From NCBI RefSeq assembly GCF_003464595.1, contig NZ_QRZF01000007.1, forward strand, positions 1 to 64,000: a stretch of 64,000 bases of DNA, given 5' to 3'. Origin of the DNA: Bacteroides intestinalis (GTDB lineage Bacteria; Bacteroidota; Bacteroidia; Bacteroidales; Bacteroidaceae). Positions within the stretch are counted from its first letter, which is position 1; every line of letters starts with the position of its first letter. Positions 3,371-40,121 of this stretch are shown piece by piece. The position numbers were made by a program, and so were the translations under genes. Below the pieces are notes generated by a model. It was not told the DNA's origin and did no database searches. It saw nothing but the letters and a program-made list of their open reading frames with translations.

Positions 3371-3498
3371 TTTTAGATAAAGCATCTGGTAGTGTTGACA
3401 GTCGTCAACCATCTTGTTTTCTATCGTCAACATATTTACCTACATCTGTCAAGAGATCTGCCAACAACTGTCAACACTACCAGATGCTTTATCTAAAA
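3371..3498. repeat. 31-bp perfect inverted repeat enclosing a 22-bp periodic array
   Basis: Arms 3371-3401 and 3468-3498 are perfect inverted copies (31 bp) separated by 66 bp. Within 3393-3480 the word GTCAA recurs at 3404, 3426, 3448 and 3470, exactly 22 bp apart, giving four 22-bp units; the first is a palindrome GTTGAC-agtc-GTCAAC. The right arm ends one base before the -33 box of the HU-like gene. The arrangement suggests a cooperative binding site (operator) controlling the divergent VirE and HU-like genes. Confidence 0.85.
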
Positions 3499-3530
3499 TT
3501 TGCTCTTCCTATATATAAATGGTACATTTG
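3499..3530 (+). promoter_or_regulatory. Promoter of HU-like gene
   Basis: TTTG (3499-3502), 20 nt, then TACATTTG (3523-3530), a full Bacteroides consensus. The predicted start of transcription is near 3536, so translation must begin at the ATG at 3561 and not at the in-frame ATG at 3519, which lies inside the promoter. Confidence 0.85.
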
Positions 3531-3560
3531 CACCATTATCTATCTATAAAACGACAAACA

Positions 3561-4199
3561 ATGGCTATACTTTTTGAATGGTATGAGAATCCGGTACCTA
3601 ACGATCAAACGGACCCAAAAACAATCCATGCACGCATCACCCTCAATGGAAAAGTAGGAACAGACGAAATCCGCCACAAAATACAGGCACGCAGTTCGCT
3701 GACAGAGACGGATGTGTCGGCAGTGCTCGATGCACTATCGCATATAATGGGAGAAGAATTGGCGGAAGGACGACAAGTACATCTGGACGGCATCGGATAC
3801 TTCCATCCTACACTGAAATGCGAGGAAGGAATCACAATGGAAACGAAACGAAAAAATGAGAAAGTGAAACTGAAGGGCATCAAGTTTCGCGCCGACCAAG
3901 CGTTGAAGAACGAGATAGGTAATGTAAAACTGAAGAATTTTAAGCATAGCGGGCACTCCAGCAAGCTATCGGACGTGGAGATAGACATGCGACTGAAGGA
4001 ATACTTTGCCGAACATCAACTGATGACACGCCTGGACTTCCAGCATATATGTGGTTTCATGAAATCGAAGGCAATGGAACACCTGAGACGACTGAAAGCA
4101 GAAGGAAAAATAGAAAACATCGGACGACAAATGCAACCGATATATGTACCCGTGGCAGGATACTACGGAGTAAGTAAAGACAAGATAGTAACAAGATAA
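3561..4199 (+). CDS. HU-like DNA-binding protein (HU-HIG type)
   Basis: A 212-residue protein whose first ~125 residues resemble the Bacteroidetes HU/IHF-like domain. It opens with MAILFEWYENPVP, and the central HARITLNGKVGTDEIRHKIQ and VHLDGIGYFHPTLK segments are typical. The last ~75 residues look like a winged-helix extension (LMTRLDFQHICGFMKSKAMEHLRRLKAEGKI). It probably binds and bends DNA. The start at 3561 is chosen because the -7 box covers the earlier ATG. It is divergent from the VirE-family gene across a palindromic array that it may itself bind (inference). Confidence 0.85.
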   Translation: MAILFEWYENPVPNDQTDPKTIHARITLNGKVGTDEIRHKIQARSSLTETDVSAVLDALSHIMGEELAEGRQVHLDGIGYFHPTLKCEEGITMETKRKNEKVKLKGIKFRADQALKNEIGNVKLKNFKHSGHSSKLSDVEIDMRLKEYFAEHQLMTRLDFQHICGFMKSKAMEHLRRLKAEGKIENIGRQMQPIYVPVAGYYGVSKDKIVTR

Positions 4200-4216
4200 A
4201 AGCAAGATAAGGAGCA

Positions 4217-4285
4217 AAAGCCCCCTTCCACACGCAAACCCCGATGAATAAAGGAATACAGCCGTGTGGAAGGGGGCTTTACTTT
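4217..4285 (+). terminator. Strong terminator after HU-like gene
   Basis: An 18-bp perfect stem, 4217-4234 (AAAGCCCCCTTCCACACG) with 4263-4280, encloses a 28-nt loop and is followed by a T-rich tail (acttttctct). It lies 17 bp after the stop codon of the HU-like gene. Confidence 0.9.
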
Positions 4286-4338
4286 TCTCTATTTATATTC
4301 AAATAAGCCCATAAAATTCAACAAATAAATGACAGCTA

Positions 4339-4534
4339 AGTTCTTGCAGTACTTAGTGTTATGATTAGCGCAAAGATATAAATAAATATTAAAAAGCAAA
4401 CAAATCAAACGTTAAAATGCAAATGTTTATTTACTCCTAATATACGATTTATTTATTCCTATTAGGTGATAATACAACTCATACCCTTCGAAGCTCTCTA
4501 ATGATGTTATTCATGTTTAAGTACTGCAAGAACT
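4339..4534. promoter_or_regulatory. Candidate invertible promoter (inverton), OFF orientation
   Basis: Two 17-bp perfect inverted repeats, 4339-4355 and 4518-4534 (core TAAGTACTGCAAGAAC), flank 162 bp. Inside, a promoter points away from susC: on the minus strand TTTG (4397-4400, or 4401-4404) then TATCTTTG (4371-4378). No TAnnTTTG faces susC. Inversion would place TATCTTTG at 4495-4502 on the plus strand, about 65 nt before the susC start. Phase-variable invertible promoters ahead of SusC/SusD genes are known in Bacteroides. No recombinase gene is nearby, so one would have to act in trans. Confidence 0.65.
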
Positions 4535-4570
4535 CGAGAAATAAAAATACTAATTTTAAAAAGAGAGCTT

Positions 4571-7500
4571 ATGAAAAGGAAACTACTATTTATCATGCTG
4601 GCTTATCTGTTTTTATGGACAAGTGCAACATTGGCCCAAGTCTCCAAAGTAACCGGAGTCGTGATTTCAGAAGAAGGCAATGAGCCGGTGGTTGGTGCAT
4701 CTATTCTGGTGAAAGGATTCTCGCAAGGAGTGATTACCAACGTAAATGGAGAGTTTACACTCACCAATGTTCCCAATGATGCCAGAACCTTAATTATCTC
4801 GTTTGTTGGCATGAAAACGCAGGAAGTTGCAATCAAGCCTCAACTCAGGATCATCATGTCAAACGATTCTCAGATGCTGGATGAAGTGATTGTAACAGTA
4901 GCCTACGGTACAGCAAAAAAATCATCGCTGACAGGAGCCATTTCATCCGTCAATCAGGATCAGATTGAAATGCGACCAACCTCCAGCGTAACTTCAGCAT
5001 TGGAAGGAACGACATCGGGCGTACAGATTAATAGTACTTACGGTGCACCGGGCAGTGATCCGTCAATCCGTATTCGCGGTATCGGAACTGTAAACGGTTC
5101 GAGCACTCCGCTTTATGTGGTAGACGGTGTTCCTTTCGGAGGAAATATTTCGGATATAAACCCGGCCGATATAGAGAGCATTTCAGTTCTGAAAGATGCA
5201 GCCTCAGCCGCACTATACGGCAACCGCGCATCAAACGGTGTGATCCTGATCAGCACAAGAAAAGGGACTTCCAACAAAATCAGTTTCGACCTAAAAATCA
5301 ACCAAGGAGTCTATTCACGCGGTATCAAAGAGTATAAGCGTACCTCACCTAACCAGTTTATGGAAGCAAGTTGGCAAAACCTGAAGAATGCACGTATGTC
5401 TGCAGGTGATGATGCAGCCACCGCGGCCAAGTATGCGTCGGAAAATCTGATTTCGGAACAACTATACCTTAATATATATAATAAGGCGGACAATGCTTTG
5501 TTCGACGCGAATGGTAATCTGGTTTCGGATGCACAAATCCTTCCGGGATATGCCGATGACCTTGACTGGTATTCGGATGCCATCCGCAACGGATACCGGC
5601 AGGAATATTCCTTTAGCGGAAATACCGCTAACGAAAAGAGTAACTATTACTTTTCCATTGGCTATCTGGATGAGAAAGGTTATGTGACAAACTCGGATTT
5701 CAATCGTATCTCAGCCCGTACCTCCATGAGCTTCACCCCTAAGAAATGGTTCAAGGCAGGCATTAACCTATCCGGCACGCACCAAAATTCTCATGCAACC
5801 AATGGGGACAGTGACGCCGGATATACCAATGCATTTATGTATTGTCGTCAGATAGCCCCCATCTATCCCGTGCATCTGCATAATGCCGATGGTTCTTATC
5901 GCTTGGATGCCCTGAACAACAAACAGTACGATCCGGGATACTATAAAGATGACGAGGGAGTAACGATCTCCACCCGTAACCAATATGTAGACCGTCATGT
6001 AATCTGGGAAAACGAATTGAGTACGGACAAAACCATACGCAACACACTGCAAGCTATTGCTTTTGCAGATGTCAAGTTCCTGAACGACTTCACATTCACA
6101 GTGAAAGGCGACCTCAACGTGCGAAACTCCGAACAGACCTCTTACGACAATGCCACTATCGGTGACGGTAAAGGAAACAACGGACGTACCAAGCGAGTGA
6201 CTTACCGCTATAAGAATTATACCTTCCAGCAGCAACTGAACTGGAATCATGTATATGGCAAACACTACATAGATGTACTGGCAGCACACGAAAACTACTC
6301 CAACAATTATGATTATGAGTATGCATTCAAGACGACCGAGACATTTGCCGGAAAGCCGAATCTGTCGAACTTCACAGATATTACCAGCCTGACCGGCTAC
6401 GAGACAGACTATCGTACGGAAAGTTACCTGGGACGTATCCGCTACAACTACGCCGAGAAATACAATCTGGAAGTTTCGTTCCGCCGTGACGGTTCATCCC
6501 GCTTCTCCAAACAGAACCGCTGGGGTAACTTCGGTAGCATCGGTGCAAACTGGATTATATCGGAAGAGGACTTCATGCAATCTCTCACCTGGATAAACTC
6601 TTTGAAGTTCCGCGCCAACTACGGACAAGTGGGAAATGATGCCGGAACCGGATATTATGGCTACATGGGGCTTTATGCCGGTAGCCAGAATGCAAACATC
6701 GGGGCATATTATTTATCTCAGAACGAAGCTCTCGATCTGAAGTGGGAGACCGGAGAGGCTTATGGCATAGCACTTGAAGGCCGTTTGTTCAACCGCTGGA
6801 ACATCAGTCTTGAGTATTTTGACAAACGGAACAAGGATCTTTTGTTCGATGTTTATCTGCCGTTGTCAGCAGGAGCCACTTCCACCACATCCGCACAGGC
6901 CACCATTGCAAAGAATCTGGGAACCATCTCCAACAAAGGTTTCGAAATCAATACGGACATCGATATCTACAGAGATAAGAAATGGAAAGTGAACTTTGCA
7001 ACGAATGCCACATTCGTCAAGAACAAGATTGTGAAACTGCCTGAACAAAATAAGGATGGGATCATATCGGGGAACTACAAGATAGTGGAAGGTAAAAGCC
7101 GTTATGAGTTCTTCCTGCCGACTTATGTCGGTGTCGACCAACTCACCGGTAACTCCCTGTACACACTCAATCTGGAAGACTATTTCATCACACTGCCCGA
7201 TGGCAGCAAATTGGGAAATGCAGAAGGTACTGACATCAGCGACAATGAAAGCCTGACTTCCATCAACGGCACTTATTATACCAACAACACGACTTACGCC
7301 CTGAAAGAATTCCACGGTTCGGCACTACCCAAAGTCTACGGCAGCTTTACCGGTACGGTATCTTACAAATCACTTACTTTCTCCGCCTTGTTCACCTACT
7401 CGCTGGGAGGTCAAACCTATGATGGGGTATACCGTTCGTTAATGACTACAGGCACTTCACCCGGCAACTTCCACTCCGACATTATGAATGCCTGGAAAGC

Positions 7501-7843
7501 GGTTCCCGAGGGAATGTCAGAAAACTCGGCAGACCGTATCTGGATAGATGGCATTCCTCAGATAAACAGTACGATGAGTGCAAACAATAATTCCGCTTCT
7601 TCCAGATGGCTTGTCAGTTCGGACTATTTAGTAGTTAAAAACCTCACACTGAGCTACCGACTACCGGCTTCCTTTGTGAAACGACTGGACCTGCAGGGAA
7701 TAAGCGTGAGCGCAAATTGCGAGAACTTATGGACATTCACAGCCCGCCAGGGCATGAATCCCCAGCAATCATTCGGCGGTTCGCAATACAACTATCTGGT
7801 AACTCCGAGAGTATTCTCCGTCGGTATCAACATTAAACTATAA
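4571..7843 (+). CDS. SusC/RagA-family TonB-linked outer membrane receptor
   Basis: A 1090-residue outer membrane transporter that imports a glycan or other large nutrient using TonB energy, with its SusD partner as lid. Order: signal peptide (1-22, ending ATLAQ), carboxypeptidase-regulatory-like domain (about 27-105: VTGVVISEEGNEPVVGASI), a DEVIVTVAYG segment before the plug, plug domain (about 115-235, with RIRGIGTVNGSSTPLYVVDG and ALYGNRASNGVI), then a 22-strand type barrel ending in VFSVGINIKL. It lies 17 bp before the susD-like gene, so the two form an operon. No glycoside hydrolase or sensor is adjacent, so the substrate cannot be read from context. Expression may depend on the invertible segment upstream. 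Confidence 0.95.
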   Translation: MKRKLLFIMLAYLFLWTSATLAQVSKVTGVVISEEGNEPVVGASILVKGFSQGVITNVNGEFTLTNVPNDARTLIISFVGMKTQEVAIKPQLRIIMSNDSQMLDEVIVTVAYGTAKKSSLTGAISSVNQDQIEMRPTSSVTSALEGTTSGVQINSTYGAPGSDPSIRIRGIGTVNGSSTPLYVVDGVPFGGNISDINPADIESISVLKDAASAALYGNRASNGVILISTRKGTSNKISFDLKINQGVYSRGIKEYKRTSPNQFMEASWQNLKNARMSAGDDAATAAKYASENLISEQLYLNIYNKADNALFDANGNLVSDAQILPGYADDLDWYSDAIRNGYRQEYSFSGNTANEKSNYYFSIGYLDEKGYVTNSDFNRISARTSMSFTPKKWFKAGINLSGTHQNSHATNGDSDAGYTNAFMYCRQIAPIYPVHLHNADGSYRLDALNNKQYDPGYYKDDEGVTISTRNQYVDRHVIWENELSTDKTIRNTLQAIAFADVKFLNDFTFTVKGDLNVRNSEQTSYDNATIGDGKGNNGRTKRVTYRYKNYTFQQQLNWNHVYGKHYIDVLAAHENYSNNYDYEYAFKTTETFAGKPNLSNFTDITSLTGYETDYRTESYLGRIRYNYAEKYNLEVSFRRDGSSRFSKQNRWGNFGSIGANWIISEEDFMQSLTWINSLKFRANYGQVGNDAGTGYYGYMGLYAGSQNANIGAYYLSQNEALDLKWETGEAYGIALEGRLFNRWNISLEYFDKRNKDLLFDVYLPLSAGATSTTSAQATIAKNLGTISNKGFEINTDIDIYRDKKWKVNFATNATFVKNKIVKLPEQNKDGIISGNYKIVEGKSRYEFFLPTYVGVDQLTGNSLYTLNLEDYFITLPDGSKLGNAEGTDISDNESLTSINGTYYTNNTTYALKEFHGSALPKVYGSFTGTVSYKSLTFSALFTYSLGGQTYDGVYRSLMTTGTSPGNFHSDIMNAWKAVPEGMSENSADRIWIDGIPQINSTMSANNNSASSRWLVSSDYLVVKNLTLSYRLPASFVKRLDLQGISVSANCENLWTFTARQGMNPQQSFGGSQYNYLVTPRVFSVGINIKL

Positions 7844-7860
7844 TAATAAAACGCTCACTT

Positions 7861-9411
7861 ATGAAAAAGATATTATACACATTAGGACTCACAGTTCTGT
7901 TGACCTCGTGCGGCAGCAACTATCTGGACACTGTACCCCAATCATCTACGGGTACGGCCACTATCTTTGAAACCACTCAGAATGCCAAACTCGCAATAAA
8001 TGGTATTTGCAGGTTAATGGTCAACCAATATCTCAGTTCACAAGGATTCAATGGCGAAGGAACTATCAAGACGTGGTATGGCAACTATCCGGGAAACGAT
8101 TTTCAGAAATCAAACCTGACCGGATGGTCTTCCGTCATCAATTCGCTTTATCACGAAAGAAATACTTCAAGCTATTGTTATTACCCCTGGTTCTACTATT
8201 ATAAGCTGATAGGTAATGCCAATGCCATCATTGAAAACATAGACAATGCCAGCGGTAGCAATGAAGAAAAGCAGTTTATAAAAGCTCAGGCACTGACATT
8301 CAGAGCATACAGCTATATGATGCTGAGCCAACTCTATTGTCATCGCTGGTGCGACAGTAATAATGGTTCCAGCCGCGGACTTCCCCTGCGCATAGACCTG
8401 AGTACGGGTGAACTGCCAACTTCTACACTGGCAGAAGTTTACGGCCGGATTTATGAAGATTTGAATGAGGCTATCTCCAATTTCACAGCATCGGAACTGG
8501 ACCGCGCGAGCGGGGACAATTACAGTCCGAACCTCGATGTGGCTTATGCCACCTATGCCCGTGCGGCCCTGACTCGTGAAGACTGGGCAACCGCTGCACG
8601 CTATGCAGTATTGGCACGTGCCAATTATCCGTTGATGACAAACTCCGAGTATGTGGATGGCGGTTTTAATACCCCTAACCAAGAATGGATATGGAGCAGT
8701 TACAATGCTACGGACCAGAATTTGCACTATTATTCATTCTTTGCCTATCAGGGCAGCAACTCCAGCGCCAGCATTTGCAGAACCTACGCATGTTCCATCA
8801 GTAAAGAACTGTACGATCAGATTCCTGAAACCGATGTACGTAAGAACATGTTTCTGGGACCCAAAGAAGGTGAAACATATACCACATCTACCGGACGTGC
8901 TTCGAAAGGCGCCCTGTATGACCGGGCTATGAAAGATTATGCCGACAAAATTTATAGCACCAGTTATATCTTTGCCTATATGCAGTTCAAAATATTATGT
9001 GCCGACCAACCGGGTATAGGGCAATTGAATAATTTCCGTTCGGCAGAGATGTATCTGATTGAAGCCGAAGCCAACTGCCACATAGGCGGCAAGGATGCAG
9101 AAACACAAAAATTACTGGTTGCCCTGAATAAGGATTCAGGCCGCAATCCCGCCTATACCTGTACGAAAACAGGAGATGACCTGCTGCAAGAAGTAAAACT
9201 GTATCGCAGGATAGAGCTCTGGGGCGAAGGTTTCGACTGGTTCGACTACAAACGCTGGAAAGAGCCGATCGTGCGCAAAGCATATCCGGAAGGCAGTTTC
9301 CATGTACAGTTTGCTATAACCATCCAGCCTTCGGACAACAATCAGTGGACTTGGGTATTCCCGGCCAAAGAAGTCGATTATAATGATGCACTTTCTTCAT
9401 ATATAGAATAA
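7861..9411 (+). CDS. SusD/RagB-family nutrient-binding lipoprotein
   Basis: A 516-residue surface lipoprotein that binds substrate over the SusC channel. The lipobox LLTSC places the lipidated Cys at residue 17. The N-terminal helical part has the usual YLDTVPQS opening, a TPR-like helix set follows (KAQALTFRAYSYMMLSQLYCHRW), and the C-terminal family motif is RRIELWGEGFDWFDYKRW. The length is usual for the family. It follows the SusC gene by 17 bp and ends at a hairpin terminator. Confidence 0.95.
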   Translation: MKKILYTLGLTVLLTSCGSNYLDTVPQSSTGTATIFETTQNAKLAINGICRLMVNQYLSSQGFNGEGTIKTWYGNYPGNDFQKSNLTGWSSVINSLYHERNTSSYCYYPWFYYYKLIGNANAIIENIDNASGSNEEKQFIKAQALTFRAYSYMMLSQLYCHRWCDSNNGSSRGLPLRIDLSTGELPTSTLAEVYGRIYEDLNEAISNFTASELDRASGDNYSPNLDVAYATYARAALTREDWATAARYAVLARANYPLMTNSEYVDGGFNTPNQEWIWSSYNATDQNLHYYSFFAYQGSNSSASICRTYACSISKELYDQIPETDVRKNMFLGPKEGETYTTSTGRASKGALYDRAMKDYADKIYSTSYIFAYMQFKILCADQPGIGQLNNFRSAEMYLIEAEANCHIGGKDAETQKLLVALNKDSGRNPAYTCTKTGDDLLQEVKLYRRIELWGEGFDWFDYKRWKEPIVRKAYPEGSFHVQFAITIQPSDNNQWTWVFPAKEVDYNDALSSYIE

Positions 9412-9436
9412 GTATAAACTCTCTCTGACAGTAAGC

Positions 9437-9478
9437 GGAAGGAGGTAGCTCTCATTTTTTGAGAGACTGCCTCCTTTC
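9437..9478. terminator. Bidirectional terminator between susD-like and MATE genes
   Basis: A stem made of GGAAGGAGGTAGCTCTCA-like and TGAGAGACTGCCTCCTTTCC-like arms around a T-rich loop lies between two convergent genes, so it can end both transcripts. Bases 9479-9559 hold nothing else. Confidence 0.75.
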
Positions 9479-9559
9479 CTACTACTTCCCCAGACCATCA
9501 CGTATCTTCTATCCGCTTCATATCGGATACATCGAAAATAATTCATAGATATATCAATA

Positions 9560-10894
9560 CTAAACCTTCTTTCTGCATAGCAAAATAAGGATTGTCGTAG
9601 TAATATCTCCCGCCGCCACCGCAAGCCAGATTCCCGTCACACCGAACCATGCAGGCAGTATAAAGAAGAACAAGACCGGCAAGATACCACGCAGCAGTGT
9701 AAGTCTCATCGCCAGATTGATACGCTCAATGCTAGTATAATACCCTATTGTGATTACATTGATCCCGAAGAAAATGTAATCGACAGCAAACAGAGGCAGA
9801 CCGGCAACCGCATACTGCCAGGCATGGCTCGTCCGATCCGGCAAGAATAAGGAAACGATATCGCCGGAGAAACAGACAAACACTCCGCTAATCAGCAAAG
9901 CGAACACAACAGCGGAAATGATGCATAAACGCAACGCCTTATTGGATCGCAATAACTGTCCGCAACCGTAATTGTAGCTGACAATAGGTTGTGCCGACTG
10001 AACCATAGCATTGAACACCATGAAAATAATAGGGAACAGATAGCAGACAATGCTATAAGCCGCTACTCCATCCGTTCCCAGATGGCTCATAAACACATAA
10101 TTGCCGGCAATAGCCATGACAGCAATTGTCATTTCGCTCAAACAGGATGAAACACCCAGTTTCAGCATATACCATGTATTCCTCAGTGTCAGTCGGATAC
10201 TCTTGATACTCATTTTCAGCCTGGCAAACCGAACGGATACGGACGGGCGAAGCAGATAACCCAAGAGTAAAAGTGTCCCCACCAGTTCTCCCAAGTCAGT
10301 GGCAATAGCAGCACCGAACAATCCCCACTCAAAAATAAAGATAAAGATATAATCGAGTACAATATTGACAACAGTGGCCGCCAGCATGGCCCACATGGCA
10401 AAGTTAGGGTTCGTCAGACGCACGAAGAACGGCAACGCCACCAGTAAAACCGTGGACGGAATGGATATGGAGAACCAAAACAAATACTCCGCCGACAATT
10501 CCGCCAGATGCCCTTCGGCCCCTAATAAGGTTACTACAGTTTCGGGGAACACAGTCAACAGTATTCCCATAATGATACTGACAATCGTCAGCATGACGAT
10601 TGACTGCGTGACATTGATATTGGCAACCACCAATTTGCCACGAGACAGATTAATGGAAGTAAGAATTCCTCCGCCCATACCGAACATCAGTCCCAACCCG
10701 GCCGCTATCATAAAAATAGGCGCCGCAATATTCACCGCGGCAATAGCATCACTGCCTATTCCGCGTCCTACGAATATCCCGTCGACAACAGTGAACAATG
10801 CGGATGATACCATACCCAGCAACGTGGGGAAGAGTTGTTTTGTAAACAACTTACTCACACTCATGTTTTTGAAGTCCAAATTATCCCTTTGCAT
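9560..10894 (-). CDS. MATE-family efflux transporter
   Basis: A 444-residue inner membrane protein with about 12 hydrophobic segments in two halves, the multidrug and toxin extrusion (MATE) layout. The N-terminal segment LFPTLLGMVSSALFTVVDGIFVGRGIG is typical of the family. Such proteins export organic cations or drugs using a Na+ or H+ gradient; the substrate here is unknown. It stands alone, divergent from the thioredoxin-like lipoprotein gene and convergent with the susD-like gene. A -7 box (10921-10928) lies upstream. A start at the internal Met (MSVSKL) is possible. Confidence 0.9.
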   Translation of the reverse strand: MQRDNLDFKNMSVSKLFTKQLFPTLLGMVSSALFTVVDGIFVGRGIGSDAIAAVNIAAPIFMIAAGLGLMFGMGGGILTSINLSRGKLVVANINVTQSIVMLTIVSIIMGILLTVFPETVVTLLGAEGHLAELSAEYLFWFSISIPSTVLLVALPFFVRLTNPNFAMWAMLAATVVNIVLDYIFIFIFEWGLFGAAIATDLGELVGTLLLLGYLLRPSVSVRFARLKMSIKSIRLTLRNTWYMLKLGVSSCLSEMTIAVMAIAGNYVFMSHLGTDGVAAYSIVCYLFPIIFMVFNAMVQSAQPIVSYNYGCGQLLRSNKALRLCIISAVVFALLISGVFVCFSGDIVSLFLPDRTSHAWQYAVAGLPLFAVDYIFFGINVITIGYYTSIERINLAMRLTLLRGILPVLFFFILPAWFGVTGIWLAVAAGDITTTILILLCRKKV

Positions 10895-10920
10895 ATCTCA
10901 TTGTTTTTAAAAAAGCGGTG

Positions 10921-10987
10921 CAAAGGTAGGTTTCATTAATTTGTTGATACTTAACAAATGGTAATTAAAACATTTGCATTATCTTTG
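10921..10987. promoter_or_regulatory. Divergent promoter region with palindrome
   Basis: On the minus strand TACCTTTG (10921-10928) serves the MATE gene; on the plus strand TATCTTTG (10980-10987) serves the lipoprotein gene. Neither has a clear TTTG at the right distance. Between them ATTTGTT-gatac-TTAACAAAT (10939-10959) is a palindrome with 7-bp arms that could be an operator shared by both genes. Confidence 0.5.
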
Positions 10988-11013
10988 TCTTTCAATATAT
11001 AAGTAGTTGAATT

Positions 11014-11940: not shown

Positions 11941-12014
11941 GTGATTAGTGGTGAGTGATTAGTGATTAGCGGCAGACAGCGCAACTAATCACTAATCACT
12001 CACCACTAATCACT
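11940..12014. repeat. 30-bp perfect hairpin made of repeated words
   Basis: Arms 11940-11969 and 11985-12014 are perfect inverted copies built from the word GTGATTAGT, with a 15-nt loop CGGCAGACAGCGCAA. The element directly abuts the stop codon of the lipoprotein gene and lies between convergent genes. The loop resembles the tip of the similar element at 29338-29424. Confidence 0.85.
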
Positions 12015-12020
12015 AAAAAT

Positions 12021-12062
12021 ATCCCCTCTCACCACTCCACATCGTGAAGGATAAAAGGGGAT
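12021..12062. terminator. Weak hairpin near end of efflux operon
   Basis: ATCCCCT (12021-12027) pairs with AGGGGAT (12056-12062). It lies between the convergent lipoprotein gene and the efflux operon and could serve as a terminator, but the stem is short and the loop is 28 nt. Confidence 0.35.
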
Positions 12063-12098
12063 GAAGAAACGAGAGAAGAGAGAGTATTGATTTATTCT

Positions 12099-18943: not shown

Positions 18944-19075
18944 GGTAACTTTGTTAACCCCGCACGGTAACTCCCTTTACATGCCGAAGTAAAGACCGTT
19001 ACATACCGAGGTAAAGGTCGTTACAATAAGGGGTAAAGGCCGTTACATACGGCAGTAAATGCTTTTACATCCTAC
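18944..19075. repeat. Six tandem 22-bp palindromic units (GTAA...TTAC)
   Basis: Six units, each exactly 22 bp, start at 18944, 18966, 18988, 19010, 19032 and 19054. Each holds a small palindrome of GTAA-n4-6-TTAC (for example GTAAAGGCCGTTAC) followed by a variable ACATnCCGA-like spacer. 22 bp is about two helical turns, so identical faces of the DNA are presented. It lies about 340 bp before the hexosaminidase start and 110 bp after the AraC-type gene. The function is unknown. Confidence 0.9.
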
Positions 19076-19176
19076 AGCAAGCCGTCGGTAAATGCTATTA
19101 GCTGATTATCAATAAGCTAATAAAAGCTCCATTAGCAATCTTCCATCCATTATAGATGGGTTATGAATTAAATGGG

Positions 19177-19278
19177 TACGCGGACGACACGGATAAGGCG
19201 GACGAACGCGGATTTAAAAATATTATAAATGATAAATTAAAGTCCGCGTTCGTCCGCCTTATCCGTGTCGTCCGCGTA
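19177..19278. repeat. Long perfect hairpin, 36-bp stem
   Basis: Arms 19177-19212 and 19243-19278 are perfect inverted copies, GC-rich (TACGCGGACGACACGGATAA... style), around a 30-nt AT-rich loop. The GC content contrasts sharply with the surroundings. It shares words such as ACACGGAT with the hairpin at 24131-24213. No gene lies inside. Confidence 0.9.
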
Positions 19279-19379
19279 TCTATTCATTCATTACTGTACA
19301 AGCATGAACAAAACCCTCTTACACCGTAAGAAAACAAAACAATACAACTGGTTAGTATAGGTTTTTAGCATTTATTTGA

Positions 19380-29328: not shown

Positions 29329-29337
29329 GTTATTTAA

Positions 29338-29424
29338 TGATGAATTTTTAATTATTAATTATGAATTGGCTGCGCTATCATGCCGCACGGTAGTTCATAA
29401 TTAATAATTCATAATTAATAATTA
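29338..29424. repeat. Palindromic element with GC-rich tip inside operon
   Basis: AT-rich arms made of AATTATTAATT and AATTCATAATT words flank a GC-rich tip (GGCTGCGCTATCATGCCG). It lies between the adaptor and pump genes of one operon. The tip motif GCGCT...TGCCG recurs, inverted, in the loop of the hairpin at 11940-12014, and TGCGC occurs at bases 4-8. Confidence 0.8.
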
Positions 29425-30441: not shown

Positions 30442-30465
30442 ATCGTTGTGATTTTTCTTTTTTAC

Positions 30466-31815: not shown

Positions 31816-31850
31816 AAAAATCAATCTGTATGTTTATTAGGATTATTCTT

Positions 31851-32510: not shown

Positions 32511-32576
32511 TTCTATTTTCTCTTTAATTTTTTAGATTTCAAGCAGAAGAATGTCCACTTTCGGAATAAAACTGGG

Positions 32577-32614
32577 CAAATATAGAAAGAAAACTCAATT
32601 CTCCAATTGAGTTT
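32577..32614 (-). promoter_or_regulatory. Promoter and palindromic operator of tetR-RND operon
   Basis: On the minus strand TTG (32604-32606), 19 nt, then TATATTTG (32577-32584). The perfect palindrome AAACTCAATT-CTCC-AATTGAGTTT (32591-32614) covers the -33 box and much of the spacer, an ideal site for a TetR-type dimer to block the polymerase. Confidence 0.8.
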
Positions 32615-32676
32615 CCTTTGAAAGATTAACTATATTAATGTTTATTATACTTCCGGCAGATTTATTGGGAAGAATG

Positions 32677-34173
32677 TCAATAATCGAACTTCGTCCGGTT
32701 CAGAAACGCCACTGTCTTATGAATTTCCTTGTACATGACAATGTCGTCTTTAATAAAAGGGACTTCTTTACGATATTCATTCAGGAAGCGTTCCAAAGCG
32801 GGAGAGGTCTTTAGAGGGCGACGGAATTCGATACCCTGTGCAGCATTCATCAATTCAATGGAGAGAATGTGTTCCAGATTGTCCATTATACGGTATAGTT
32901 TGGTAGCTGCATTAGCTCCCATGCTGACATGATCTTCCTGTCCGTTGGAGGAAACAATGGAATCACTGCTGGCAGCATAGCAATACATCTTATTCTGGCT
33001 AACCATGGATGCAGCGGCATATTGTGGTATCATAAAACCGGAGTTCAAACCGGGATTGGCTACCAGAAATTCAGGCAGACCACGCAGTCCCATGATAAGC
33101 TGTGCCACACGCCGCTCGGAAATGTTACCTAATTCGGCAAGGGCTATGCCGAGGAAGTCATAAGAAATGGCAAGTGGCTGACCGTGGAAATTTCCGCCGG
33201 AGATGATACGGTCTTCATCGGGGAAGATAGTTGGATTGTCCGTTACGGAATTGATTTCGGTCAGCAGGACGGAAGAAACATAACGGATAGCATCTTTCGT
33301 TGCACCATGTACTTGGGGGATGCAGCGGAAAGAGTACGGATCTTGTACATGGGCTTTGTATTGAGCAATGATTTCACTTCCTTCCAGTAGCTTGCGGAAA
33401 TTATCGCCTGTCTCGATTTGTCCCCGATGCGGACGGATTTGCTGGATACAATCCATAAAAGGATCGATACGCCCATCGAAAGCTTCGAGGGAAAGAGCGG
33501 CAATAAGGTCGGCTTTCTTGGAAAGGCGGAAGGCTTTCAGAATGGCAAACACACCATTGGCACTCATAAACTGCGTACCATTGAGCAGGGCAAGACCTTC
33601 TTTACTCATAAGTTTCACCGGTTCCCAACCAAACTCATCGAGGACACTGATGGCTTCGCGCTTCTTACCTTTATAATAAACATCGCCCACACCGATAAGC
33701 GGTAGGAAAAGATTGGCAAGGGGGGCCAGATCACCGGATGCACCGAGTGAACCACGATCGTAGACAATAGGCATCACATCGTTGTTGAAGAAATCGAGGA
33801 TACGCTGCACGGTAATGACTTGCACACCACTATGTCCCAAAGAAAGGGCATGGGCTTTGAGCAGCATCATTAGTTTGACAATGACGGGACGTATTTCTTC
33901 ACCGACGCTGCAAGCATGACTTTTAATCAGGTTTTCCTGCAAAGTACCCAGTTCGTCGGGGGATATATTCTTGCTGCACAGGGAACCGAAGCCTGTGGTG
34001 ATACCGTACAAAGGCTCTTCGGACTCGGCTATCTTATGGTCGAGGTAGTCGCGGCATTTCTGTATCCGTTCTTTGGCTTCGGGAGCCAGTTCCAGTTTCA
34101 GATTCTCGTTGATAATTCGTTCGATGATGTCGAATGTGAGTTCACCGGACCCTACATGATAGACGTTTTTCAT
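32677..34173 (-). CDS. hutH: Histidine ammonia-lyase
   Basis: A 498-residue cytoplasmic enzyme that removes ammonia from histidine to give urocanate, the first step of histidine breakdown. The Ala-Ser-Gly triad that cyclises into the MIO cofactor is at 145-147 in GSLGASGDLAPLANLF. The catalytic Tyr is in YGITTGFGS (about 56). The length is usual. It is the last gene of the hut operon and its start overlaps the stop of the cyclodeaminase gene by 4 bp. Confidence 0.97.
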   Translation of the reverse strand: MKNVYHVGSGELTFDIIERIINENLKLELAPEAKERIQKCRDYLDHKIAESEEPLYGITTGFGSLCSKNISPDELGTLQENLIKSHACSVGEEIRPVIVKLMMLLKAHALSLGHSGVQVITVQRILDFFNNDVMPIVYDRGSLGASGDLAPLANLFLPLIGVGDVYYKGKKREAISVLDEFGWEPVKLMSKEGLALLNGTQFMSANGVFAILKAFRLSKKADLIAALSLEAFDGRIDPFMDCIQQIRPHRGQIETGDNFRKLLEGSEIIAQYKAHVQDPYSFRCIPQVHGATKDAIRYVSSVLLTEINSVTDNPTIFPDEDRIISGGNFHGQPLAISYDFLGIALAELGNISERRVAQLIMGLRGLPEFLVANPGLNSGFMIPQYAAASMVSQNKMYCYAASSDSIVSSNGQEDHVSMGANAATKLYRIMDNLEHILSIELMNAAQGIEFRRPLKTSPALERFLNEYRKEVPFIKDDIVMYKEIHKTVAFLNRTKFDY

Positions 34174-34799
34174 ACTCGTAATTCTTGGTTAACAACATCC
34201 AATACTTCTTTTTCACGGTCACAAGCCATGCGTTCCAGCACATCGGCTTCTCTTTGGAGTTCATCTGCAAAGGTTTTGTCTTTGATGGAACCCAGGTTGA
34301 TACGAACGTTCAGCAAGGCCCCCAGTACAGCTGTACGGGCGGACATCATGGCCACACAAGCATCAGTCACTGCATTACGGTTTCCCAAACGGGCGACATC
34401 GGCAATCACCGACATCAGTTCGTAAGCATTACGGGCTACTTGCATAGGAACGAGGGCGGCATACTTAGTAGCTTCCTGAATGGCAGCGCTGCGGACGGCT
34501 TTTTCTTCATCGGTAGCCTTGGGCATTTTGAAGCATGCAAACACCGCATCATAGGCTTCCGAGTCACGATCTATATCAGCTATGAATACGTCTTTCTCTC
34601 TCAGTGCGAGAGAAGCGATATGGTTCATAAGTTCCTCGTGTTCTTCGTAATTCTTCTTGCCGATGGTGAGGTTAGCGACCATAACGGTAAGTGCCGAAGC
34701 TACAGCACCGTTCAAGGCAGCAATGCTTCCGCCACCGGGGACAGGATCACTGCCCGCCACTTTATTCAAGAATTCTTTTACTGTTAAATCAACTAACAT
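34170..34799 (-). CDS. fchA: Formimidoyltetrahydrofolate cyclodeaminase
   Basis: A 209-residue helical enzyme that converts formiminotetrahydrofolate to methenyltetrahydrofolate and ammonia. The folate-binding PVPGGGSIAALNGAVASAL segment is at about 19-37. In animals this activity is fused to glutamate formiminotransferase; here they are separate genes of one operon. It lies between hutI and hutH and overlaps hutH by 4 bp. Confidence 0.92.
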   Translation of the reverse strand: MLVDLTVKEFLNKVAGSDPVPGGGSIAALNGAVASALTVMVANLTIGKKNYEEHEELMNHIASLALREKDVFIADIDRDSEAYDAVFACFKMPKATDEEKAVRSAAIQEATKYAALVPMQVARNAYELMSVIADVARLGNRNAVTDACVAMMSARTAVLGALLNVRINLGSIKDKTFADELQREADVLERMACDREKEVLDVVNQELRV

Positions 34800-34819
34800 G
34801 GTATTTTTCTTTAAAGGTT

Positions 34820-36073
34820 TTACAATACAGGATAAATCACACCTTCTTTAATGGTGGTATTTACGCAATTCATACCGACATAGTAAGGCAGAAAATGGTA
34901 ATTATCAGAATTCAGCACTACAAAATCTCCCTTCTTGCCTACTTCGATGCTGCCGATACTATCCGCCCGGTTCAAGGCAGCAGCCCCGTTCAAAGTGAGG
35001 GCGGTGATAGCTTCTTCAATAGTAAGATGCATATAGATGCATGCCAGAGCAAAAGTCAGCGGAATGGAACCGGAGAAACAACTGCCCGGATTGAGATCTG
35101 TGGCAAGGGCTACGGCACAACCGGAATCAATCATTTCGCGACCACGTGCATAAGGTTCTTTCAGGGCAAAAGCTGTAAGAGGGAGTAAAGTCGCAACGGT
35201 TCCGGCATCCCGCATAGCGCGGATACCAGCATCGGATGCATGCAACAGATGATCTGCGGAAACAGCGGAAAGCTCGGCAGCCAGTTCGGCACCACCCAGC
35301 GGAACTATTTCATCGGCATGAAGTTTCAATCCCAAACCATATTCCTTGGCGACTTGCAACAGACGCCGGGATTGCTCGACGGAGAAAACGCCTTGTTCGC
35401 AGAAGACATCACAAAACTCGGCCAGTTCATTTTTGGCAACGCAAGGCAAGACGTCACTGATAATGAAATCAAGGTATTCGTCCGTACGTCCCTTATATTC
35501 CTCGGGTACGGCATGCGCACCCAGAAAAGTGGATACAATATCTACCCGCTTATGCTCGTCATTATTCAGGCTACGCATGACTTTGAGTTGCAGAAGCTCC
35601 GTTTCCTTATCCAGTCCGTAGCCGCTCTTGCCTTCTACGGTAGTAACCCCCATATTACTCATTTGCTTCAAAAAACCTTCGGCTTTGGAGCGGAGTTGAA
35701 TAAAACCACATTCGCGGGTGGCCTTTACAGTGCTTACAATGCCACCACCACGCTCCATGATAGACATATAGCTTTCTCCTTTCAATCGCCAGGAGAACTC
35801 TTCGGCACGTTCGCCACCAAATACAAAGTGAGTATGCGAATCGACGAAGCCGGGTAACAGGCATTTGCCACGAGCATTGTAGTGCCAATAGCGTTGATAA
35901 TATCCGTCACGCATCTCGCCCCGGGAAGGACCGACATAGGAAATGATACCGTCGGTTACTTCTATTGTAGCATTATCAATGATGCATAGTTCACCCATCT
36001 CTTTGCCACAACGGGCGGAAAAGCCGATGGGGGTTACAACGCGGGCATTGAAAATTATCAGGTTCTCGGTCAT
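34820..36073 (-). CDS. hutI: Imidazolonepropionase
   Basis: A 417-residue amidohydrolase that opens imidazolonepropionate to N-formiminoglutamate, the third step of the pathway. The metal-binding HxH is at 80-82 in GFVDSHTHFVFGGERAEEF. Further metal or substrate residues appear in LKLHADE and in LATDLNPGS. It lies 20 bp upstream of fchA in the hut operon. Confidence 0.96.
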   Translation of the reverse strand: MTENLIIFNARVVTPIGFSARCGKEMGELCIIDNATIEVTDGIISYVGPSRGEMRDGYYQRYWHYNARGKCLLPGFVDSHTHFVFGGERAEEFSWRLKGESYMSIMERGGGIVSTVKATRECGFIQLRSKAEGFLKQMSNMGVTTVEGKSGYGLDKETELLQLKVMRSLNNDEHKRVDIVSTFLGAHAVPEEYKGRTDEYLDFIISDVLPCVAKNELAEFCDVFCEQGVFSVEQSRRLLQVAKEYGLGLKLHADEIVPLGGAELAAELSAVSADHLLHASDAGIRAMRDAGTVATLLPLTAFALKEPYARGREMIDSGCAVALATDLNPGSCFSGSIPLTFALACIYMHLTIEEAITALTLNGAAALNRADSIGSIEVGKKGDFVVLNSDNYHFLPYYVGMNCVNTTIKEGVIYPVL

Positions 36074-36118
36074 ATTAAAAAACTTTATTTGTGTAATTTG
36101 CGTTCTTTTATCATTCTA

Positions 36119-37018
36119 TTATTCTTCCATAATCCTCGCCTCAAGCACTTGTTGCATAGAGAAATTCTCTAAACCAAGATAATAAGAAGCTGTATCAATG
36201 AGCGCCTCCATCGGAACAAGGCCGATAATCTCACTCCCCACGATGCTGACCCCATAGCGACGTGCTTCTACACGGGTCAGTTCAAAAGCGCGGTAAAGGG
36301 CGGTACGGGTATAGTCTGTCATATTGATGGAGACCTGAGTAATGCCCCGGTCTTTCAACTCTACTCCCATTGCTTTGCAATAACGCAGGCCACCGCCAAT
36401 GAAACGAATCTTCTTGGCAATATCATGTGCGATATCCAGATTAGGTGTATTCAGATTGATATTGTAGGCTACCAACGGCATGCGGGCACCGATAGCAACG
36501 GTTCCGGCAGTGGCATGGCGTTCGGCAGGACCAAAGTCGGGCTGCCATTCGGGTAGCTTTATCTTTTCTGCCATACCTTCGAACTCACCTTTACGCACGG
36601 CAGCAAGATTTTCGCGATGCGGAGCGGATGCGGATTTCTCATAGAGAAAGACAGGAAGATTATAGCGTTTGCCTACCTCTGCACCTACTTCTTTGGAAAG
36701 GGCGATAGCTTCTTCCATCGTCACATTCTTGATGGGGATGAAAGGAACTACATCTACGGCACCCATACGGGGATGTTGCCCGGTATGGTGATTAAGGTCA
36801 ATAAGTTTTACAGCAATACCGATAGCTTCGAGAACGGCATCACGAAGGGGGTCCGGTTCCCCTACCACGGTTACTACCAGACGGTTGTGGTCTTCATCGT
36901 TACTGTAATCCAATAGTTTTACACCTTGTTTACCACGGAAAGGGGATATGATTTGATCTATTTTCTGCAAGTCACGTCCCTCGCTGAAGTTGGGGACACA
37001 TTCGATGATTTTATTCAT
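36119..37018 (-). CDS. ftcD: Glutamate formimidoyltransferase
   Basis: A 299-residue enzyme that transfers the formimino group from formiminoglutamate to tetrahydrofolate, releasing glutamate. It begins KIIECVPNFSEGRDL, typical of the family, with a DYSNDEDHNRLVVTVVG segment and GQHPRMGAVDVVPFIP. It matches only the N-terminal, transferase part of the animal bifunctional protein; the cyclodeaminase is the separate fchA gene. It lies 10 bp after hutU. Confidence 0.95.
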   Translation of the reverse strand: MNKIIECVPNFSEGRDLQKIDQIISPFRGKQGVKLLDYSNDEDHNRLVVTVVGEPDPLRDAVLEAIGIAVKLIDLNHHTGQHPRMGAVDVVPFIPIKNVTMEEAIALSKEVGAEVGKRYNLPVFLYEKSASAPHRENLAAVRKGEFEGMAEKIKLPEWQPDFGPAERHATAGTVAIGARMPLVAYNINLNTPNLDIAHDIAKKIRFIGGGLRYCKAMGVELKDRGITQVSINMTDYTRTALYRAFELTRVEARRYGVSIVGSEIIGLVPMEALIDTASYYLGLENFSMQQVLEARIMEE

Positions 37019-37028
37019 GATTCTCTTT

Positions 37029-39008
37029 TTATGATATGTATTTATTTACTAATTCGTCATCAGCCACGTATGGCATCGTAATATGATAACCATCAGCATG
37101 TGTCCGGTTAAACTCTTCACTCGTCTCCATAGCATGCCCATTGCGTGCCCATGAACGCCGGGCCACACCGCCCATCACGTCCCACAACATAGCAGAACGA
37201 AGTATTTCATCCACCCGCTCACTACCATCGCATACCATACCGAAGCCGCCATTTATGGCTTTTCCAATACCCACACCACCACCATTGTGCAGTGCTACGA
37301 GGCTCATTCCCCGGGCACAGTTTCCGGCAAAGCATTGCACGGCCATATCCGCCATGACATTGCTTCCATCTTTTATATTAGAAGTTTCACGGAAAGGAGA
37401 GTCCGTACCACTCACATCGTGATGATCGCGTCCCAACATAATAGGTCCAACTTCACCATTGCGTACCATTTCGTTGAACTTCAACGCTATCGTCATACGT
37501 CCTACCGCATCCTGATAAAGAATACGCGCCTGAGTACCTACCACAAGATTATTCTTTTCCGCGTCACGTATCCAATTGTAGTTATCCAGATCCTGACCGC
37601 GACGGTTCGGGTCAATACATTCCATCGCTGCATGATCGGTCTTTATCAAATCTTCATGTTTACCACTGAGACATACCCAGCGGAAAGGTCCGTAACCATA
37701 ATCAAAAAGTTCCGGCCCCATAATATCTTCTACATAACTGGGGAATATAAATCCATTCTTATCATCTTCTTCTTTGGCAATCTCACGAACTCCGGCATCA
37801 TAAACGGCTTTCATAAAGGAGTTTCCATAATCGAAGAAATAGGTACCCTGCTCTACAAGGGCTCTTATAGCCCGGAAATGGCGCACCAACGATTCATTCA
37901 CCAGTCTACAGAATTTCTGCGGGTCTTCGTGCAACAGACTTGTACGTTCGGCGAAAGTAATTCCCGCCGGACAGTATCCGCCTTCGTAAACGGCATGGCA
38001 GGAAGTCTGGTCAGAAAGCAGGTCTATATGTATATTTTGGTTTACAGCATATTCCAGCAAGTCAACGATATTCCCATGATAAGCAATGGATATCGGTTTC
38101 TTGCCGTCCATCGCCTCATGCGCCAGCGAGAATGCTTCGGGAATAGAATCCGTGACATGCCCTACCCAACCTTGCCGATGCCGGGTTTCAATACGTGACA
38201 TATCTACCTCGGCTATAATGGAAGCTGCACCCGACATCTCGGCGGCCTTAGGTTGGGCACCGCTCATGCCGCCCAAACCGGAAGATATAAACAGGTGTCC
38301 GCGCAAATCACCGTTCTGAGGAATACCAAGCTTCATACGTCCGGCATTCAGCAGAGTATTAAAGGTACCATGCACAATACCTTGAGGACCAATATACATC
38401 CAGCCTCCGGCAGTCATCTGACCGTAGTTGGCAACTCCCATTTGCATGGCCACGTGCCAATCCTTCTGATTATCGTAAAGACCTACCATCATGGCATTCG
38501 TAATAATCACGCGTGGTGCATCGGGCTTAGAACGGAATAATCCCAGCGGATGTCCACTTTCAATAACGAGTGTCTGATCTTGAGTCAGTACTTCAAGATA
38601 CTGTTTAATGAGACGATACTGCATCCAGTTTTGACAAACCTGTCCCGTTTCGCCATAAGTGACTAGTTCATAAGGATAGAGGGCAATATCGAAGCAGAGA
38701 TTATTGTCAATCATCACTTGGAAAGCCTTGCCTTCAATGCAATTTCCTTTGTAAGCATCGATAGGTTTCGCTTTGAGATCGCCTTGCGGACGATATCGGT
38801 AGCCATAGATACGCCCGCGGGTACGAAGTTCTTCCATAAACTCCGGTGCGAGGGTCTCGTGTAATTCTTTGGGGATATAGCGCAATGCGTTCTTTAACGC
38901 CGTGGCAGTTTGTACGGGCGAAAGTGTGAAGCCACGGTCAGGAGCCCTCCGGATACCCTCTACAAAAGTGGGATAAGGGGGCAATGTGTTACTTAAGGTT
39001 ATTTCCAT
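37029..39008 (-). CDS. hutU: Urocanate hydratase
   Basis: A 659-residue NAD+-dependent enzyme that turns urocanate into imidazolonepropionate. The NAD-binding segment SGLGGMSGAQPKAAEM and GWVGHVTDSIPEAFSLA are clear, as is the late RDHHDVSGTDSPFRET. The usual Pseudomonas-type enzyme has about 555 residues; this one is about 100 longer and nearer the size of animal urocanase. It is the first gene of the hut operon. I could not find a consensus promoter in the 63 bp upstream. Confidence 0.95.
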   Translation of the reverse strand: MEITLSNTLPPYPTFVEGIRRAPDRGFTLSPVQTATALKNALRYIPKELHETLAPEFMEELRTRGRIYGYRYRPQGDLKAKPIDAYKGNCIEGKAFQVMIDNNLCFDIALYPYELVTYGETGQVCQNWMQYRLIKQYLEVLTQDQTLVIESGHPLGLFRSKPDAPRVIITNAMMVGLYDNQKDWHVAMQMGVANYGQMTAGGWMYIGPQGIVHGTFNTLLNAGRMKLGIPQNGDLRGHLFISSGLGGMSGAQPKAAEMSGAASIIAEVDMSRIETRHRQGWVGHVTDSIPEAFSLAHEAMDGKKPISIAYHGNIVDLLEYAVNQNIHIDLLSDQTSCHAVYEGGYCPAGITFAERTSLLHEDPQKFCRLVNESLVRHFRAIRALVEQGTYFFDYGNSFMKAVYDAGVREIAKEEDDKNGFIFPSYVEDIMGPELFDYGYGPFRWVCLSGKHEDLIKTDHAAMECIDPNRRGQDLDNYNWIRDAEKNNLVVGTQARILYQDAVGRMTIALKFNEMVRNGEVGPIMLGRDHHDVSGTDSPFRETSNIKDGSNVMADMAVQCFAGNCARGMSLVALHNGGGVGIGKAINGGFGMVCDGSERVDEILRSAMLWDVMGGVARRSWARNGHAMETSEEFNRTHADGYHITMPYVADDELVNKYIS

Positions 39009-39071
39009 AACATGCAGGATGAAAGGTTACAAAATGTCATCAGTTTACTTCTGTAAGCTGCCGCAATATAG

Positions 39072-39112
39072 AAATAAATCCCGATATCAACAAGTGATAC
39101 CGGGATTTATTT
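39072..39112 (-). terminator. Terminator of the 208-residue gene
   Basis: AAATAAATCCCG (39072-39083) pairs with CGGGATTTATTT (39101-39112); inner pairs (with one mismatch) extend the stem. It lies 10 bp after the stop codon of the upstream gene and 64 bp before hutU. Confidence 0.75.
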
Positions 39113-39121
39113 ATCATTTAG

Positions 39122-39748
39122 TCATTTTAAGCGTAGTAAGTATTTACCTGTAACTTCCGCACTTTCACTGCTTTCCTGTAAGAAGGCGTTCAGAAGTTCC
39201 GGCTCATTTTTTAGTAGCTGTAGCATTTTGTCTTTTCCTACGAACTCTACTTTACCCGTTTCCGGATTCAGTTCATAATAAACCCGCGCATTGACCAGCC
39301 CCGAAGCGGCAATGGCCGTACCGACATCTCCACCCAACTTTGTAGCGTCGGCAGGCTGTGTGGTACTTGCCGCCACAGAACCTACAGGCTGTGCATAGAA
39401 ATAAATTTTCCCCTGTATCCAAATGGCAGGGGCATACCAACCGCCGAAACGGAAGCGTTTATAACGCACTTTCTTACAGTTAACGTATAACGCCGAGTCA
39501 GCCCTCACCGCATAACAACGGGATTTCAAATATCGGCAGAGACCGGGATTGTCATCTACCGAGACGCGATAGTCAGCACCTCCCATCAGTAAAATCTGAT
39601 TCTTGGAGCGCTTCTCTATCTTCAATGTGGAGAGTGTGTCGCCACGATCTTCCACCAGTTCCTTCAAATTGGCATATATCACTTGCTGGGCGCTCCCATG
39701 CAAAGCAACCAATAATCCGAATATGCCTAATAACCACCACCTTTTCAT
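39122..39748 (-). CDS. Hypothetical exported protein
   Basis: A 208-residue protein with a signal peptide (MKRWWLLGIFGLLVALHGSAQ). The mature part has a repeated basic pattern (KKVRYKRFRFGGWYAPAIWI) and a Thr/Ala-rich middle. Similar proteins of unknown function are common in Bacteroides. It has its own promoter and terminator. I do not recognise a catalytic motif. Confidence 0.75.
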   Translation of the reverse strand: MKRWWLLGIFGLLVALHGSAQQVIYANLKELVEDRGDTLSTLKIEKRSKNQILLMGGADYRVSVDDNPGLCRYLKSRCYAVRADSALYVNCKKVRYKRFRFGGWYAPAIWIQGKIYFYAQPVGSVAASTTQPADATKLGGDVGTAIAASGLVNARVYYELNPETGKVEFVGKDKMLQLLKNEPELLNAFLQESSESAEVTGKYLLRLK

Positions 39749-39786
39749 ACCCCAAGCTTTTCTTTCTAAAACAGTTTTATCTGAGC

Positions 39787-39818
39787 GAAAGTTACATTAT
39801 TTATCCAAGAAGAGCAAA
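39787..39818 (-). promoter_or_regulatory. Promoter of hypothetical exported protein gene
   Basis: On the minus strand TTTG (39815-39818), 20 nt, then TAACTTTC (39787-39794), one base from the -7 consensus. Confidence 0.65.
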
Positions 39819-39989
39819 TTATTGAAAAGAAAAATGCAATTTCGGCAGATTTATGTTCATGCATATTTATACTTGGGCTTATCTCTATACTGCATAATAC
39901 GCTTCAAAGCTGCGAGTAACTGGAAAAATAAGCAATACTCATCAAAGGGATATCTAAGGCGAAAACTTACTACCTTGATGGATAAGAAT

Positions 39990-40121
39990 AGTTTCATCAC
40001 TTGGAACTGCAAGTTTCATGCCTTGAAACTGTCTGTTTCATGCTTTGAAACAAGCAGTTTCACACCGAGAAACAGACAGTTTCACACTGAGAAACAAACG
40101 CTTCTCTTAAAGGAAACATAA
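39990..40121. repeat. Six tandem 22-bp palindromic units (GTTTC...GAAAC)
   Basis: Six units of exactly 22 bp start at 39990, 40012, 40034, 40056, 40078 and 40100. Each holds GTTTC-n7-GAAAC (for example GTTTCATGCCTTGAAAC); the first and last are degenerate. The array lies 49 bp before the promoter of the MutS-like gene. It shares the period and palindromic design, but not the sequence, of the arrays at 3393-3480 and 18944-19075. Confidence 0.9.

Follow-up and report, generated by a model that had tools for sequence, protein, structure and literature searches.

Three intergenic arrays of palindromic units, all repeating every 22 bp, lie in a 64,000-nt stretch of Bacteroides intestinalis DNA (contig NZ_QRZF01000007.1, positions 1 to 64,000; hereafter the window), and they raise the question of whether arrays built from different words can belong to one system and, if so, which protein reads them. 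We propose, with a probability of about 0.7, that such arrays consist of consecutive DNA sites for HU-HIG paralogues (a family reportedly defined by Burroughs and colleagues in 2017), each of which would have a private palindromic word, repress its own gene and fill dispersed copies of its array. The features on which the argument turns are the following.

3394 to 3481, no strand assigned: array 1, four 22-bp units, the leader array of the HU-HIG gene
3561 to 4199, plus strand: HU-HIG gene (PF18291, TIGR01201), 212 amino acids (aa) from the likely start at 3561, in an open reading frame (ORF) that opens at 3519
18944 to 19075, no strand assigned: array 2, six 22-bp units, dispersed class
39990 to 40121, no strand assigned: array 3, six 22-bp units (GTTTC/GAAAC), dispersed class

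The evidence that carries this proposal comes from the leaders of HU-HIG genes. The window and two Bacteroides genomes, G001 (the genome nearest to the window; 6.94 Mb in a single contig) and G022, yielded 80 HU-HIG hits (1, 45 and 34, respectively), from which 67 proteins could be read (1, 38 and 28). We classed these by the length of the tail past the HU domain, with a non-overlapping split between 51 aa or less and 74 aa or more, since an iterated winged-helix profile drifted onto the HU domain and its table was discarded. The winged-helix class comprises 22 proteins with tails of 74 to 87 aa that can be aligned as one family. Arrays were detected with a folded dyad score, which is independent of the word, and at the threshold of 11 used for HU-HIG leaders an array is present upstream of all 22 winged-helix genes and of 10 of the 45 short-tail genes (Fisher p 2e-10). 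Raising the threshold to 12 leaves 21 of the 22, the gene at L293 scoring 11.3, while, among genes in general, 48 out of 1102 with at least 100 codons score 12 or higher in a search span of the same size. When all genes were taken from the same stretches, an array was found within 150 bp of 5/13 HU-HIG genes and 20/1145 other genes. The rule that winged-helix HU-HIG genes possess a leader array is firm in G001 and G022. Among the short-tail proteins that do have an array, four out of ten share a YPLSKYFP-like tail (by eye), and all four leader arrays with a period of 21 bp go with proteins of one tail type.

The sequence-only reading had suggested checking for linkage to HU-like genes, and had imagined a common two-turn architecture with a family of proteins that recognize different words. 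The linkage is borne out, and it is to HU-HIG: genes of the HU-DNA_bdg type (PF14848) show an upstream array in none of seven cases, so that a link to HU-like genes in general was rejected. The protein-family idea gains support from the same 22 out of 22 genes and from words that are shared between leader and distant arrays (16 of 81, see below), as far as sequence can indicate.

Beyond the two genomes, HU-HIG hits turned up in every one of 60 genomes from the order; many of these hits are weak and may represent plain HU. One locus from each of seven more genomes was scored: arrays precede all four long-tail genes (25.2, 29.1, 13.3, and 14.6), and the three genes that lack a long tail score 10.4, 5.5, and 10.9.

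In 29 out of 33 leader arrays, no fifth unit exceeds 3 bits against a profile built from the same four units. Over the full array length, 958 of 1450 position pairs are complementary when the centre is picked for best fit, and in 16 of the 33 the dyad extends at least 5 bp beyond the four units; inverted arms border array 1 and roughly half of the leader arrays. The motif TAnnTTTG, which we take to be the Bacteroides −7 promoter element, is located upstream of 22 of the 33 leader arrays and ends 10 to 18 nt before the first unit in 20 of them. The corresponding control counts are 1.4 for shuffles, 0 for the reverse strand and 3 for the stretch past the array.

The promoter motif just upstream suggests that transcripts include the leader arrays, and this raises the alternative that the arrays are chains of RNA hairpins in mRNA leaders and 3′ ends. 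Twenty-two nucleotides also correspond to two turns of an A-form helix, and dispersed arrays tend toward the 3′ ends of genes. An RNA stem would favour G.U on the transcribed strand, and mismatched pairs in the 33 palindromic leader arrays have no excess of G.T over A.C, neither within units (134 versus 149) nor across the array (98 versus 130). Selection on the arrays therefore seems to act on DNA. In addition, no Rfam family falls on the arrays (the sole window match at the gathering threshold is the S4-Bacteroidia ribosomal protein leader at 45494-45526 on the minus strand), and the linked genes encode a fold of DNA-binding type. RNA hairpins fit poorly, and we hold this explanation to be quite improbable.

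Is the shared period beyond chance? In all three window arrays it was confirmed. Array 1 has GTCAA(C/G) at 3404, 3426, 3448, and 3470, a spacing of exactly 22, and an exact GTTGAC at 3394 only, for which reason we call it worn; it is the most worn of the three, with a folded score of 13.7 to 14.7. An inverted repeat surrounds it (arms 3352-3405 and 3464-3517, 83% complementary). Array 2 has GTAA at 18945, 18967, 18989, 19011, 19033, and 19055 and TTAC at 18977, 18999, 19021, 19043, and 19065. Array 3 has GTTTC at 39991, 40013, 40035, 40057, and 40079 and G(A/G)AAC at 40003, 40025, 40047, 40069, 40091, and 40113; its folded score is 23.9. The interval scan overlooked array 3 because a spurious ORF (39603-40121) masked it, and the strict scan recovered it.

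The strict scan accepted any word of five letters that was followed by its reverse complement, then by the word again and once more by the reverse complement, at periods of 14 to 60. Over 1.2 Mb of G001 it returned six arrays at period 44, five at 22, three each at 23 and 46, and one or none at every other period; over 0.4 Mb of G022 it returned seven at 44, six at 22, and one at each of two other periods. One shuffle contained no array at period 22. The folded score was applied to intergenic DNA at periods of 15 to 35 with a threshold of 13 or more, and period-22 arrays were found in 25/261 and 10/147 intervals of two G001 stretches, in 10/121 intervals of G022, and in 2/26 intervals of the window, i.e., in 7-10% of the sampled Bacteroides intergenic intervals. 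The other 20 periods yielded between zero and four arrays each per stretch, and one shuffle per stretch gave none at period 22. A wider survey, which kept the best array per intergenic interval at a threshold of 12 or more, covered 2.0 of the 6.9 Mb of G001 and found an array in 86 of 670 intervals, with period 22 in 70, period 21 in eight, and period 23 in eight. Fifty arrays contain four (34), five (14) or six units (2), a count that leans to four because the scan window spanned four units.

The excess over shuffled intergenic DNA, whose absence the sequence-only reading had named as grounds for giving up the idea, is hence seen. Two of its statements need adjustment. It had presented 22 bp as the exact common period, and 22 is the main period but not the sole one. 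It had also placed the three arrays under a common architecture, and they do share the 22-bp layout, but array 1 belongs to the leader class and arrays 2 and 3 to the dispersed class.

The HU-HIG protein of the window matches PF18291 with 102.2 bits (cut-off 26.2; E 2.7e-29; residues 15-139) as well as TIGR01201, and 1328 of 1410 candidate relatives were retained at an E-value of up to 0.001. An AlphaFold2 model (mean predicted local distance difference test score, pLDDT, 73; predicted template modelling score 0.40) has a weaker HU part (pLDDT about 54-81) and a C-terminal domain of the order helix-helix-helix-strand-strand with a pLDDT of about 85-90 (helices 138-151, 157-164, and 168-181; strands 184-186 and 194-197). 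Going by this model, the protein is an HU domain followed by a C-terminal winged helix. Foldseek ranks chains of CadC, AntR, Z-alpha, and small ribosomal proteins first, all known as winged helices. Its best E is 2e-3, with no chain below 1e-3, and a Bacteroides vulgatus DNA-binding protein (4fmr) stands at rank 20. A sequence search of the PDB retrieved HU chains only. Word similarity tracks protein similarity among 17 proteins, with r 0.34 for the tail and 0.38 for the HU domain (both p < 0.001), a correlation that cannot tell which domain reads the word. We propose the window protein as the reader of array 1. The homologous HU-HIG locus of G001 retains the 22-bp architecture with a word that differs from that of array 1, and the array-1 region matches at 76%, compared with 92-98% for the syntenic stretches of the window and G001. 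Array 1 as a DNA query matched none of 61 genomes in a search run with no positive control.

Arrays away from HU-HIG genes were examined in the 2.0 Mb of G001. When gaps of 110 bp or longer are considered, dispersed arrays occupy 21 of 80 between convergent genes, 41 of 349 between tandem genes, and 15 of 139 between divergent genes (five out of 82 arrays were left unassigned), an enrichment in convergent gaps relative to the rest (Fisher p 0.001). In tandem gaps, 31 of the 41 are closer to the 3′ end of a gene. All but one of the 82 are separated from every HU-HIG hit by over 1 kb. The 68 dispersed arrays with period 22 form 25 clusters by word, of which 11 have a single member; the largest contain 11, 9, 6, and 6 arrays.

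Some of these words are those of leaders. At a similarity of at least 0.7, and with periods matched by construction (21 with 21, 23 with 23), 16 out of 81 distant G001 arrays share their word with a G001 HU-HIG leader array, and 10 out of 18 leader words are found at distant arrays. The 14 leader arrays of the foreign genome G022 match two of the 81, both of a period-21 type common to both genomes, and a permutation control that keeps the dyad gave 1/1620.

A rival explanation is that the arrays are mobile repeats, i.e., short non-autonomous elements resembling miniature inverted-repeat transposable elements (MITEs) or repetitive extragenic palindromic (REP) elements, whose spread would depend on a transposase or on the HU-HIG locus itself and which would have no regulatory role at the dispersed sites. 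Their intergenic placement and the multi-copy clusters just listed agree with this, as does the lack of array 3 at the orthologous G001 site, and in one leader/distant pair (L239 versus 706600) the units agree in order at 80 of 88 positions, compared with at most 70 for a permuted order, between unrelated flanks. Two further pairs (L276 and L266) also share flanks. In 12 of the 15 pairs tested (out of 16), however, the true order is at most one position above the best permuted order, which indicates that the word is shared rather than the block and lends no support to block copying as a general rule. REP systems need a Y1 transposase, and the gene of their REP-associated tyrosine transposase (RAYT) is bordered by dispersed palindromes whose word is matched to it; here, the arrays have a fixed 22-bp pitch and the Y1 transposase (PF01797) is found in none of four genomes (control rings positive in 5 of 14), so that REP/RAYT was rejected. 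Mobile elements also leave unexplained why each of the 22 winged-helix HU-HIG genes has an array of its own word at a set distance from the promoter. REP/RAYT and plain MITEs fit poorly, and we consider a purely mobile origin unlikely.

Arrays 2 and 3 illustrate the dispersed class. Array 2, between an AraC-type gene and a GH20 gene, matched two of 61 genomes as a DNA query. Its family in G001 amounts to 12 matches that reduce to ten places with an array (two overlap and one is outside an array). The flanks of array 2 are 13.8 kb apart in G001, with no array at either junction in the sequence examined. In most G001 copies (L131-L141), the array is followed by a 3′ border, GTAAATGCTATnnnTTGATAATCA, while the 5′ side fades. 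Array 3 separates a DUF6563 gene from a divergently oriented gene with a MutS domain. A two-unit pattern derived from it matched 10 of 61 genomes, with up to 35 forward matches, and the reversed pattern gave none except in one genome with three. The orthologous G001 site contains 84 bp of other sequence in place of the array; by eye, these include one unit from another family. Across 297 units of the array 3 family, the seven bases between GTTTC and GAAAC occur in 150 forms, compared with 239 (standard deviation 6) expected from independent columns, and the ten commonest forms make up 99 units versus 33 expected. With species relatedness uncontrolled, this restriction may come from shared descent or copying.

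The genes around array 1 suggest one more alternative. Array 1 shares its intergenic region with a divergent gene, and the order is VapE-like gene (minus), array 1, HU-HIG gene (plus), and then a SusC/SusD pair.

1917 to 3224, minus strand: VapE-like/DUF3874 gene (PF05272, PF12990)

VapE-like relatives adjoin 7 of the 67 HU-HIG loci, five of these with arrays, and BT4734-like genes (PF08800) are divergent neighbours at L237, L241, L285, and L288, i.e., at four of the ten winged-helix loci scanned. As 22-bp iterons are known, the arrays might be iteron-like initiator sites left from a decayed replicon in which HU-HIG was the initiator and the VapE- or BT4734-like protein the helicase-primase. 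Iterons are direct repeats, however, while the units here are palindromic; other HU-HIG loci adjoin genes for carbamoyl phosphate synthase, a class I tRNA synthetase or an acetyltransferase, and the distance of the dispersed arrays from HU-HIG hits does not suit this role either. Of the alternatives considered, replication origins are the least probable, and we give them very little weight.

We return to the reading of the arrays as site rows for HU-HIG proteins, to which their architecture, period, linkage, promoter spacing, shared words, and locations all point at the sequence level. We infer the rest of the mechanism as follows. HU-HIG proteins would act as HU-type dimers, the core class carrying a winged helix, and would bind next to one another along the same face of the helix at a pitch of 22 bp (21 or 23 bp in some classes), a typical row consisting of four dimers. 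As the leader array starts shortly past the promoter, a filled array would block early transcription and the HU-HIG gene would repress itself. The same protein would also fill the distant copies, which are enriched between convergent genes and toward 3′ ends, and these might serve as local nucleoprotein barriers. Arrays 2 and 3 would join this scheme by their architecture alone. Short-tail HU-HIG proteins that lack a leader array are possible partners of orphan dispersed arrays.

Several observations weigh against this reading. The promoter motif is absent from 11 of the 33 leader arrays, array 1 included. Six long-frame HU-HIG genes (tail class not read) from two other genomes of the order have one clear array (23.2), one borderline array (10.6), and none in the remaining four. 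As many as 65 of the 81 distant arrays have no cognate leader word, and no partner protein was found for arrays 2 and 3; among 1836 ORFs at loci L001-L142 there is no HU-HIG gene near arrays of the array 3 type. The correlation between word and protein, finally, does not single out the winged helix.

A broader form of the proposal would see in these pairs a private-word chromatin code of Bacteroides: tens of HU-winged-helix and related HU-HIG paralogues, every one with a word of its own, a four-dimer array through which it represses itself, and further arrays scattered at gene ends, with word and protein co-evolving into strain-specific nucleoprotein fences. We put this forward tentatively, at slightly less than even odds. 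If true, HU-HIG, an expanded DNA-binding family in Bacteroides, would gain a function and a target code, and there would be an explanation for a type of repeat that about one in ten of the sampled intergenic intervals contains. The many natural pairs of protein and 22-bp word would then show how HU-type dimers gain sequence specificity and would provide material on the joint change of regulators and their sites.

Among known systems, the iterons and tandem operators of autoregulated proteins also place sites two helical turns apart near their own promoter. They usually combine one protein with one word per replicon or regulon, while here there are tens of paralogues with private words and dispersed copies. 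BrickBuilt, a minisatellite MITE of Porphyromonas gingivalis (PMC4596501), comes from the same bacterial order and is likewise an intergenic, multi-copy tandem repeat with dyad symmetry, at a period of 23 nt. It differs in being one family with variable and often large repeat numbers and with a leader and tail that have IS5-type terminal repeats; the parts of PMC4596501 consulted describe neither a linked binding protein nor a set of words. The HU protein PG0121 of P. gingivalis, from the same order as well, prefers in vitro a 77-bp inverted repeat upstream of the capsule operon over a control 77-mer (PMC3969353). At about 10 kDa, it would be without a winged-helix tail, and it is described with one repeat, the consulted parts of PMC3969353 giving no 22-bp array or paralogue words. 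Nothing on such arrays is present in the consulted parts of PMC5771137. In the openly licensed literature, we found no paper on HU-HIG and no named system in which the paralogues of a family are paired with private four-unit arrays as well as dispersed copies. The novelty apparently resides in this pairing, and would be smaller if plain autoregulation is all there is; the protein-and-operator pairs apparently form a large, undescribed family.

Some entries of the protein count should be specified. The 13 hits omitted from the 67 proteins are seven from G001 (L247, L275, two at L277, and L278-L280), which are short, broken or fail the length/stop filter, and six from G022 (L312, L313, and four more without a locus). 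The omitted locus L275 does have an array, with a score of 13.6. L245 was tallied as array-free because its start was misplaced; an array is found at 1116119, 117 bp past the upstream end of the HU-HIG match, and the tally was kept. L296, a near-duplicate of L295, is included in the 67 and excluded from the word/protein correlation.

Other repeats accompany the arrays. A second dispersed repeat with palindromic arms of the CGCGGACGAACGCGGA type directly follows array 2 on its 3′ side (19155-19312) and has many partial matches in G001 on both strands. A CTGATTATCAA-like motif was seen by eye next to arrays with different words, at G001 505264, 376080, and 306859 and at array 2 of the window. 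Just 3′ of the HU-HIG gene, window positions 4216-4274 match an inverted pair at 734709-734821 of G001, and a dispersed array (734474) lies several hundred bases from this pair.

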